Source: Streptomyces marinisediminis
GTDB lineage: Bacteria > Actinomycetota > Actinomycetes > Streptomycetales > Streptomycetaceae
Reading direction: 5' to 3'
Length of the DNA stretch: 64,000 bases
NCBI RefSeq assembly: GCF_026262575.1
Contig: NZ_JAPKFL010000001.1
Location: 1-64,000 of the forward strand
Below the pieces are notes generated by a model. That model saw only the letters and a program-made list of their open reading frames with translations. It had not been told where the DNA came from and did no database searches. Below are positions 60,371 to 64,000 of the stretch, piece by piece (within the stretch, counting starts at the first letter, position 1; the number at the start of each line of letters is the position of its first letter). The position numbers and the translations under genes were made by a program.

Positions 60371-63004
60371 ATGCACCCGACGCACCGCGGTCCTGACGAC
60401 GGCGGCGGCCGCGAGAGCCACGACAGTGGCGCGCTGGCCCGCACCGTCCAGGTGGTCGCGGGGGAGTACCTGCTGACCGTCAACCCCGTCGACGGCAGCG
60501 AGATCGAGCCCTGCCCGCCCGACCGCCGCCCCGCCTCGCCCGAGCGCCGCACCGCGGCGGCCCGGGCCGAGCGGCGGCGCGCCGAGACGCCGCCGCAGCC
60601 CGTCGGCGACGCGGCCCTGGACCTGCCGCTGCTGGAGCGCGCGGAGGAGCGCCGGCGGCTGACCCGGCTGCTGGCCCGCGGCCGCTCCGTGCGGCTCACC
60701 GGCCCCTCCGGCGCGGGCCGCACCGCGCTGCTCGACGCCGTCGAGGAGGACTGCGCCGGCCTCGCCCCGGACGGCGTGGTCCGGCTCAGCGGTTACCGGC
60801 GCGGCGTCGAGGAGCTGCTCTGGGAGCTGTACGCCACCGTCTTCGAGACGTCCCGCTACCGCCCCGGGCGCGCCGAGCTGCTCGACGCGCTCGCGGGCGT
60901 CGGCGCGGTCGTCCTCGTCGACGACCTGGAGTTCGGCGGGGCCGCGCTGGACGAGCTGCTGACGGCCACGCCCGAGTGCGCGCTCCTGCTCACCGCCACG
61001 CCGCAGGCCCCCGCCCCGCCCGCCCACGCGGAGCTGGAGGAGGTCGCCCTGCCCGGCATCAGCCGGACCGCGTGCGTGGAGCTGCTGGAACGCGCCGGTG
61101 GCCGCGCGCCGAGCGAGCAGGAGGCCGACTGGGCGGGCGACCTGTGGTTCGAGTCCGAAGGGCTTCCGCTGCGCTTCGTGCAGGCCGGCGCGCTGCTGCG
61201 GCACCGCGACGCGGCATCGGCCGCCGACGGCGCGTCCGACGGTGCCGAGCCCGACGGCGGGGCCGGGAGCGAGCCCGGCGCCGGGGCCGAAGCCGTCACC
61301 GGGGCCGAAGCCGCCGACACCGACGGTGACGGTGACGGTGACACCGACGGTGACGGCGGCACGGGGCCGAGCACGCTTCCGCCGCTGACCGTGGCCTCCG
61401 TCAGCGCTGTCCGGCTCGCCGAGACGCTGTCCGCGGCGGGCCGCCGGGTGCTGCGGTTCGCCGTCGCGCTCGGCGGCGAGGTGCCGCAGGCCGCGCACCT
61501 GCCCGCGCTCCTGGACGACCAGCGCGCCGACGCCGCGCTGGCCGAGCTGACCTCCGCCGGGCTCGCCACGTCCGCCGGACCCCACTACCGCCTGGCCGCC
61601 GGGGTCACCGAACAGCTCGCGGACGCGGGGTACGGCGAGGGCGCCGAGGCGCTCGTGCGCACCGCCGCCCAGCACTACGCCTGGTGGGGCGGGCACCCGT
61701 CCGTCACGCCGAAGCGGGTGGCCGCCGAGTCCGAGGCCGTGCTCGCCGCCGTCACCGCCGCCCGGGCCGCGGGGGCCACCAGCGCGGCCGTGCTGCTCGC
61801 CCGCACCGCGGCGCCGGTCTTCGCCGCCGCCGGGCGCTGGGCGGCCTGGGAGCGGGTGCTGACCGAGGGGTGGCAGGCCGCCGAACAGGCCGGGGAGGTG
61901 GCCGAAGAGGCCTACTTCCACCACGAGCTGGGGGTCCACGCGCTGTGCGAGGGCGACCTGGGGCACGCCCGCGCCGAGCTGGAGCGGGCGATGGAGCTGC
62001 GCGGCCGACTGGCCGACCGGCGCGGCCAGTTCGCCGGACGCCGGGCCCTGGCCCTGGTCGCCGACGCCGCCGGGGAACCGCTCGCGCCCGACCTGGACGA
62101 CGAGGAGCTCGCCGCCGCCGAGGCCGCGACGACCGTCCAGCCCGTGGTCGCCCCGGGCGCCGTGGCGCAGGACACCGCGCCCCTCCCCGGACCCGGCCCG
62201 GTCGTCCCCGGCGGCACGGACCGCCGCCCCCTGCTCACCGGGACCCGCCGCAACCTGGTGGCCGCCGCCGCCGGCGCCCTGCTGGCCGTCCTGCTCGGCA
62301 CGGTGGTGACGCTCAGCAGCGTCTCCTCCGGCGGGGAGGACCGTGACCGTGTGCAGCCGGATCGTTCCTCCACCCAGCCGGAGACGGACGACAGCTTCGA
62401 GGAGGTCGCGCCGTCCCCCTCCGACGAGGAGGGCGACGACACGGGCAGGCCGGGCCCCTCCGGCTCCCCGGAGAGCCCCGAGGAGTCCGCCGGCACGCCC
62501 TCCGGTTCCGCCTCCCCCGAGGAGTCCTCGGGCGACCCGTCCCCCACCGACGACGGCGAGCCGAACGACCCGAGCCCCAGCGACAGCCCCGACGACACCA
62601 CCGGCGGCCCCGGCACCGACGGCGGCACGGGGGACGCGGGCGGCACCGACGGCGGGGGCGACAACGGGGGCGGCGACGACGGTGGCGGTGACGACGGCGC
62701 TGACGGCGGCGGCGATGCCCAGGGCGGATGGCAGGGCGGCTCGGAAGGCGGCGGCAGCTCCGGCGCCGATCAGGGTGGTTCCAACACCGGGGGCGGTGAC
62801 ACCGACGGCGGCTCCGAAGGCGGTGAGACCACCGGCGGGTCCGAGGGCGGCGGCACGGACGGCGGCGCGGACGAGGGCGGCGACAACTCCGGTGCGGACG
62901 GCGGCTCCACCGGCTCGCCGTCCGCGACGGGCCCGGCGCCCTCCTCCTCCCGGAGCAACGGCACATCCGCCTCGCCGACCGGCACCGCCCCGCTGCTCCT
63001 CTGA
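60371..63004 (+). CDS. membrane-anchored P-loop NTPase with a long low-complexity tail
   Basis: An 877-residue protein. Residues 1-75 include a hydrophilic start. From about residue 90 a STAND/AAA-type ATPase follows: LLERAEERRRLTRLLARGRSVRLTG leads to Walker A GPSGAGRTAL, and VLVDDLEF is Walker B. A helical segment from about 290 to 560 follows, with an Asp/Gly-rich insert (TDGDGDGDTDGDG). A single membrane helix (NLVAAAAGALLAVLLGTVVTL) lies at about residues 632-652. The last 220 residues are Gly/Asp/Ser/Thr/Pro-rich and probably extracellular. Function unknown; it is the gene after the STAS protein. Confidence 0.82.
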   Translation: MHPTHRGPDDGGGRESHDSGALARTVQVVAGEYLLTVNPVDGSEIEPCPPDRRPASPERRTAAARAERRRAETPPQPVGDAALDLPLLERAEERRRLTRLLARGRSVRLTGPSGAGRTALLDAVEEDCAGLAPDGVVRLSGYRRGVEELLWELYATVFETSRYRPGRAELLDALAGVGAVVLVDDLEFGGAALDELLTATPECALLLTATPQAPAPPAHAELEEVALPGISRTACVELLERAGGRAPSEQEADWAGDLWFESEGLPLRFVQAGALLRHRDAASAADGASDGAEPDGGAGSEPGAGAEAVTGAEAADTDGDGDGDTDGDGGTGPSTLPPLTVASVSAVRLAETLSAAGRRVLRFAVALGGEVPQAAHLPALLDDQRADAALAELTSAGLATSAGPHYRLAAGVTEQLADAGYGEGAEALVRTAAQHYAWWGGHPSVTPKRVAAESEAVLAAVTAARAAGATSAAVLLARTAAPVFAAAGRWAAWERVLTEGWQAAEQAGEVAEEAYFHHELGVHALCEGDLGHARAELERAMELRGRLADRRGQFAGRRALALVADAAGEPLAPDLDDEELAAAEAATTVQPVVAPGAVAQDTAPLPGPGPVVPGGTDRRPLLTGTRRNLVAAAAGALLAVLLGTVVTLSSVSSGGEDRDRVQPDRSSTQPETDDSFEEVAPSPSDEEGDDTGRPGPSGSPESPEESAGTPSGSASPEESSGDPSPTDDGEPNDPSPSDSPDDTTGGPGTDGGTGDAGGTDGGGDNGGGDDGGGDDGADGGGDAQGGWQGGSEGGGSSGADQGGSNTGGGDTDGGSEGGETTGGSEGGGTDGGADEGGDNSGADGGSTGSPSATGPAPSSSRSNGTSASPTGTAPLLL

Positions 63005-63120: not shown

Positions 63121-63882
63121 TCAGAACAGCTTGAGCTTGTCGTCGGGGATGCCGCGCAGCTCGTCGTAGTCGACGACGACGCAGCGGAAGCCGCGGTCTT
63201 CGGCGAGGGTCCGGGCCTGGGGCGCGATGCTCTGCGCCGCGAGGCAGCCGCCCACGGGGGCCAGCAGGGGGTCGCGGTTCAGCAGTTCCACGTAGCGGCT
63301 GAGCTGCTCCACGGCGTCGATCGTGGCGCGCCGCTTGATCTCCACCGCCCAGTGCCGGGGCCGCTCCGGCTCCGCGGCGGGCTCCGCGGGACCGGCCTCG
63401 TCGGCCTCTCCGTGCCCGGCCCCGACGGCCCCGACAGCCCCGACAGCCACGCTCGCGCCGTTCGCGTCCCGGCCCAGGATGTCCACGGGCCCGATCGCCG
63501 TGGGGTACTCGCGCCGGACCAGCGTCCAGCCCGCGCCCAGCGTCTCCATGCGGTCGGCCAGCAGCTCCTGGAGGTGCGCCTCGACGCCGTCCTTGATCAG
63601 CCCCGGGTCCGTACCCAGTTCGTGGCTGGAGTCGTGCAGTATTTCTGCCATCGTGATGATCAGTTTCTCGCCCGCCTTGTTGACCACCGTCCACACCCCG
63701 TCGTCGGCCTCCTTGAGCGTGCACGGGGGCGACATCCAGTTGAGGGGTTTGTAGGCCCGGTCGTCGGCGTGGATGGACACCGATCCGTCGGCTTTCACCA
63801 GGATCAGCCGGGGTGCCATGGGCAGGTGGGCGGTGAGCCGGCCGGCGTAGTCCACGGAGCAGCGGGCGATGACGAGACGCAT
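63121..63882 (-). CDS. nucS: endonuclease NucS (mismatch-specific) with an insert
   Basis: A 253-residue protein of the NucS/EndoMS family, the mismatch-repair nuclease of actinobacteria and archaea. The N-terminal DNA-binding part ([56 protein letters not shown]) is fully conserved. The nuclease core has Asp134 (GPVDILG), Glu181 and Lys183 (VEIKRR) and the later PQAR motif. Compared from memory with the about 226-residue mycobacterial protein, roughly 33 residues (about 148-180) are inserted immediately before Glu181. The start is the ATG at 63882. Confidence 0.93.
63343..63441 (-). repeat. in-frame insert in nucS with a 9-bp repeat
   Basis: 99 bases encode the extra Gly/Ala/Val/Glu/Pro-rich segment before the catalytic Glu. 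Beside its 3' end on the plus strand lie three 9-bp units of the form GACNGCCNC (63424-63450), encoding Val-Gly-Ala repeats that could expand or contract by slippage. Confidence 0.7.
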
Positions 63883-64000
63883 GGGCGGCACGCTACTCGA
63901 CCCCGGACGCCCGTAGCGATTCGCCCCTGCTTCTCCCCGTTCATGCGTGGCCTGTTGTGTGCGCCACCCTATGGCCGGGCCGTCGCCAAGCCCTTACGGT
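63883..64000. other. right edge: nucS upstream region
   Basis: The last 118 bases should hold the nucS promoter on the minus strand. They are less GC-rich than the coding sequence. No gene is visible before the window ends. Confidence 0.4.

Follow-up and report, generated by a model that had tools for sequence, protein, structure and literature searches.

A mosaic NucS of Streptomyces marinisediminis with the probable relic of a first catalytic strand

Many actinobacteria rely on NucS as their mismatch-repair endonuclease, and in Streptomyces marinisediminis its gene carries an in-frame insert directly in front of the codon for the catalytic glutamate, which raises the question of what this insert is, where it came from and what it leaves of the enzyme. 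The window analysed here is a stretch of 64,000 nucleotides (contig NZ_JAPKFL010000001.1, positions 1 to 64,000) from a draft genome of 141 contigs. Counted from the conserved start MRLVIARC at 63882, nucS occupies 63121..63882 on the minus strand and encodes 253 residues (253 codons plus stop); a GTG upstream at 63891 is an alternative start that would add three residues, with which the whole frame spans 63121-63891 (-). The product matched NF002876 with 377.2 bits (cut-off 252), PF01939 with 114.9 bits (cut-off 24) and PF21003, the N-terminal PH-like DNA-binding domain, with 107.8 bits (cut-off 23.9), the latter covering residues 1-93 (63604..63882, minus strand), which are of the native Streptomyces type. 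HMMER alignments placed Asp134 (63481..63483), Glu181 (63340-63342) and Lys183 (63334-63336, all minus strand) on D160, E174 and K176 of the Pyrococcus abyssi structure 2vld, so the catalytic Asp and Glu-x-Lys are those named by an earlier sequence-only reading of this DNA. The protein ends with KLKLF, a putative clamp-binding motif similar to the consensus KLRLF (PMC11109965, section 18). Agreement with the fold of solved EndoMS/NucS was found as well; Foldseek TM-scores of the window model against EndoMS were low (0.34-0.46 by query), probably owing to a different placement of the two domains, and VIA alignments were used instead. The insert at 63343-63441 corresponds exactly to residues G148-V180, that is 33 codons adjoining Glu181, which confirms its proposed position and is also the gain in length over P0044, the short NucS of Streptomyces sp. 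JJ66 with its 220 residues. From catalytic Asp to Glu there are 47 residues in the window protein compared to 14 in 2vld, one of the archaeal EndoMS/NucS structures (5gke, 5gkj, 2vld).

Short-form actinobacterial NucS/EndoMS (223 residues in S. ambofaciens, 220 in JJ66) resembles the window protein in domain order, D-ExK residues, C-terminal clamp-binding motif and single chromosomal copy, but has one catalytic strand, in which GEIDGVEQL runs straight into the helix (read in the JJ66 protein), no linker and a C-terminal part of another type, termed type A; type-A short forms read TVAVEIKRRGEIDGVEQL. Many long-form relatives carry two tandem catalytic strands instead, namely TVAVEIKRRGEIDG, a linker and a second strand. 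In a set of 188 proteins, obtained by joining two lists of the best 120 matches (to the whole protein and to its C part) and therefore skewed toward window-like proteins, 144 had an enlarged and 44 a short middle. The same order can be read in the window protein (all on the minus strand): residues 144-160 (63403..63453), at the place of TVAVEIKRRGEIDG in the relatives, are followed by a linker of residues 161-175 (63358..63402), the counterpart of SESKEGTATPKP-type linkers, by an intact catalytic strand of residues 176-190 (63313..63357), assigned from ExK conservation, the model strand and the P. abyssi alignment, and by a C-terminal part of the nuclease domain of type B (residues 191-253, 63124..63312), which bears the final KLKLF. 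At the aligned Glu and Lys places of copy 1, however, the window has Gly and Ala. It is therefore a one-motif derivative and not a two-motif member of the long forms, among which P0007 (named S. canus), P0003/L002, L006 of the Pseudonocardiales and L007 of Amycolatopsis rifamycinica have the linker, second strand and type-B C part in common with the window but keep copy 1 intact, whereas copy 1 of the window is decayed and a 9-bp repeat has been added.

As the window sequence alone is too eroded to be recognised, the homology of residues 144-160 to copy 1 was inferred via Streptomyces sp. TRM70308 (P0001; TVAAGIERGAADG), the nearest relative among the matches listed. Its first 143 and last 82 residues are identical to those of the window protein, and the segment between these flanks (TVAAGIERGAADGAGSAEPAAP) is legible as TVAVEIKRRGEIDG with substitutions. 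The copy-1 Glu place is Gly in both proteins, and the copy-1 Lys is absent from both, with different residues in its place. We consider it likely, with a probability of roughly 80%, that the catalytic strand of this mosaic NucS had been duplicated and that the insert is what decay has left of the first copy; the intact second copy is predicted to cut and the insert to form a disordered loop. At its own locus, a short-form Streptomyces nucS would have exchanged its 3' half for that of a long-form (type-B) NucS; with both catalytic residues available from copy 2, copy 1 would then have lost Glu and Lys, and the freed loop would have drifted, with a gain of about two 9-bp units by slippage in the window lineage. 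The anatomy and this history are drawn from sequence comparison, and structure and function are predicted.

The mosaic is seen in the comparison with genome G202, taken as strain JJ66, in which the neighbours of nucS on both sides occur in the same order, so that the window gene sits at its native locus. Over residues 1-134 the G202 protein shows 95.5% identity, with 85.2% third-position identity in same-residue codons, compared to 72% and 64.8% for residues 176-253 (Fisher test of N versus C part, p = 4.6e-6 for amino acids and p = 0.0046 for third positions). Third-position identity of six flanking genes was 73.5-84.9%, and as one of the six is down to 73.5%, this measure alone is modest. 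Towards JJ38/JJ66-type proteins the N part showed 95.6% and the C part 69.8-71.4% identity; residues 191-253 were 96.8% identical to P0002, 87.3% to P0003 and 71.4% to the JJ66 protein. Trees were calculated from few columns, 139 (N) and 76 (C), by quick searches, with groups picked after the sequences had been seen. The N tree groups the window with short forms of the JJ38/JJ66 type (support 94, short of the 95 mark) and the C tree with P0002, P0004 and P0016 (support 95), and a C tree forcing the window and TRM70308 into the JJ38/JJ66 group was rejected (AU p = 0.000113). By sequence, the 3' half of the window nucS is thus of a different NucS type from its 5' half. On the C tree, 19 Streptomycetaceae type-B rows already lie on one side of a branch (support 94), and an N tree that holds them as a clade apart from 21 type-A rows was rejected (p = 0.00019); the type label changes nine times on the N tree versus once on the C tree. 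Judging by these rejections and label changes, members of the family have probably swapped the 3' half on several occasions.

A different older history, held with low confidence, takes the two-strand form as ancestral in Actinomycetes, with the single-copy types A and B derived from it by loss of either copy. In its favour, type A (98) lies on the C tree inside a group that also holds the two-copy or long proteins P0021, P0024, P0078, P0068 and L024 (support 89), and clean type-B singles are known (S. hainanensis L014, L010, L011). This grouping nevertheless has weak support, with 76 columns behind it; a single copy was found in the Thermoleophilia loci read, and the ancestral state bears on older events, so that the mosaic in the window stays either way. 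Single-copy type-B NucS was found in Solirubrobacterales, Micromonosporaceae, the Curtobacterium loci read and S. hainanensis; its C-terminal part is like that of the window, but the first copy and the linker are missing.

The fate of the two copies could be followed in 130 long forms, namely the window and 129 of the 144 long proteins, the other 15 being excluded for having fewer than 120 residues before the middle. Glu-x-Lys is intact in the last copy of 130/130 and in copy 1 of 80/130; a cruder pattern count over 143 long forms gave 143 for the second and 92 for the first ExK. Among 48 long forms, 24 of them with intact copy 1, trees of 82 rows required at least 13 (N tree) or at least 11 (C tree) changes of the copy-1 state. 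This repeated decay of copy 1 next to a copy 2 that is intact in every long form counted amounts to a natural experiment on the ways in which a PD-(D/E)xK active site can shift position along one polypeptide. RRGEIDG is kept exactly in 51 of the 80 intact copy-1 strings, and both figures leave room for a role of copy 1 in other lineages, or for its renewal there by recombination. AlphaFold2 leaves residues 143-169 of the window protein below pLDDT 50, in line with the suggestion that the insert loops out, and places Glu181 and Lys183 in a strand of residues 177-186. For the two-copy protein P0007, residues 146-169 including copy 1 (E151/K153) are likewise below 50 and copy 2 (E178/K180) is placed in the active-site strand 174-183, although 14/14 type-A motifs in its alignment sat on copy 1. 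Both are predicted monomers modelled without DNA or metal.

These observations also bear on the reading that copy 1 functions in two-copy enzymes, as an alternative strand or a regulatory loop, and that the window carries a modified regulatory loop. The 80 proteins with an intact first ExK include some whose N part is no more than about 70-80% identical to that of the window, and the usual spacing from Asp to Glu (14 residues) is found at copy 1, while the usual spacing from Glu to the helix is found at copy 2; with one usual spacing each, either copy could serve as far as the sequence goes. We nevertheless regard this reading as unlikely, given the repeated loss of copy 1 and never of copy 2 among the 130 long forms, the disorder of copy 1 in the P0007 model and the absence of both catalytic residues from copy 1 of the window. 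Equally doubtful is the bolder idea of a two-handed nuclease, in which either tandem Glu-x-Lys strand could slot in beside the catalytic Asp and strand exchange would tune cleavage, with the window allele locked on the second strand and the nuclease half of nucS being a recurrently swapped actinobacterial module. With both Glu and Lys missing from its aligned copy 1, the window protein is left with one catalytic strand; the proposal that the insert makes mismatch repair switchable found no support in this strain, and regulation by the loop is not indicated.

It might also be argued that slippage simply added the insert to an otherwise ordinary NucS in this lineage. A tandem repeat of a 9-bp unit encoding Val-Gly-Ala, as read from the sequence before, was indeed detected by Tandem Repeats Finder at 63419..63448 (minus strand; 3.3 copies, score 53). 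Between the identical flanks the window has 28 residues and TRM70308 has 22, and this difference of six residues equals two units of the repeat; the comparison is at protein level, the nucS DNA of TRM70308 lying outside the 31 genomes searched. We infer that slippage produced these six residues, but it would then explain only about 6 of the 33. Comparable linkers followed by a second strand recur in many relatives, and the 3' half comes from another NucS type, which contradicts slippage for all but about six residues and makes it improbable as the whole explanation. A recent private insertion is ruled out by the recurrence of long forms elsewhere. Of the earlier suggestion of slippage plus local duplication, the hint of a duplicated strand (WAV before EIKRR) was well taken, but slippage covers a small share, and the remaining insert is best read, from the alignments, as a decayed first catalytic strand plus a linker recurrent in many NucS proteins.

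Loss of nucS raises recombination between diverged DNA, according to PMC5290159. An inactivating insert, with the strain a natural hypermutator, could be imagined, as the insert adjoins the active site and profile searches of the genome gave no match to MutS1 or MutL (TIGR01070, TIGR00585; in control genomes TIGR01070 was positive in 11/14 and TIGR00585 in 14/14, 11 of them over the cut-off). However, the catalytic residues and KLKLF are intact, the 225 flanking residues are identical in TRM70308 and long forms persist in many lineages, which renders inactivation very improbable. The genome-wide search gave a single NucS match; relaxed selection through a second NucS was rejected on this ground, and so was a MutS/MutL backup, for which there was no match in the genome. 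Most likely, judging from sequence and model, the product of the gene is a NucS that works and whose extra loop is not conserved. A sequencing or assembly error in the GC-rich repeat, conceivable in a draft of 141 contigs, can practically be dismissed, since the frame is kept, the repeat is just 30 bp, where an error could alter only the number of 9-bp units, and the separately deposited TRM70308 protein is long at the same place.

Long forms were seen in Streptomyces, other Streptomycetaceae, Pseudonocardiales, Amycolatopsis rifamycinica, Streptosporangiaceae MAGs and others, and yet they look rare in the genome samples. A NucS match was obtained in 389/392 Streptomyces genomes, the window's own included; the match was missing from G114, G139 and G183, three drafts of 98-99% completeness, reflecting either an assembly gap or a real loss. 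Loci were read among the best matches listed, where long forms would be expected to rank high in C-part searches. Among these, 0/58 other Streptomyces loci (57 genomes) were long: the 29 from the C-part search comprised 28 type-A singles and one type-B single (G120), and the 29 from the whole-protein search were all type-A singles. The class sample had a match in 340/394 genomes, and 29 new loci read there included one long form with both motifs (G398, L139). A segment of this length is thus not general in Streptomyces NucS, and what would have refuted the sequence-only reading, its presence in most Streptomyces, did not turn up; neither is it peculiar to the window, with long forms in other Streptomyces and actinobacterial groups. 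PMC11109965 describes Streptomyces nucS as single-copy in 125 species, with 223 residues, 86-97% identity to the S. ambofaciens protein and conserved catalytic residues, and repeated replacement of the nuclease half is absent from this uniform picture. The literature searched (subscription papers little covered) yielded no paper in which NucS has a duplicated catalytic motif or swapped nuclease halves, and two-motif NucS and repeated nuclease-half swapping thus appear undescribed in it.

Other variants of the same region were noted. P0064, a metagenome protein of 279 residues among the 130, has a longer tandem duplication in a type-A NucS, and as the repeated segment reaches the catalytic strand, two GPVDLLCRD and two ExK motifs result. 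Tandem-peptide-repeat linkers between the strand positions occur in P0066, P0093 and P0145 (SGGLASGG-, RPGAP- and GSSAEGSAR-like), and the linker site seems, from these sequences, prone to slippage as in the window. NucS proteins of Miniimonas, Serinibacter and Cellulomonas (L018, L019, L020) have loops of varied length without a first ExK copy and may be donor-like or fully decayed forms. Convergent with nucS, an 877-aa frame (60371-63004, plus strand) with a weak AAA_16 match below the cut-off and a long Gly/Asp/Ser-rich C-terminal tail has matches in the corresponding position of G202 and G360.
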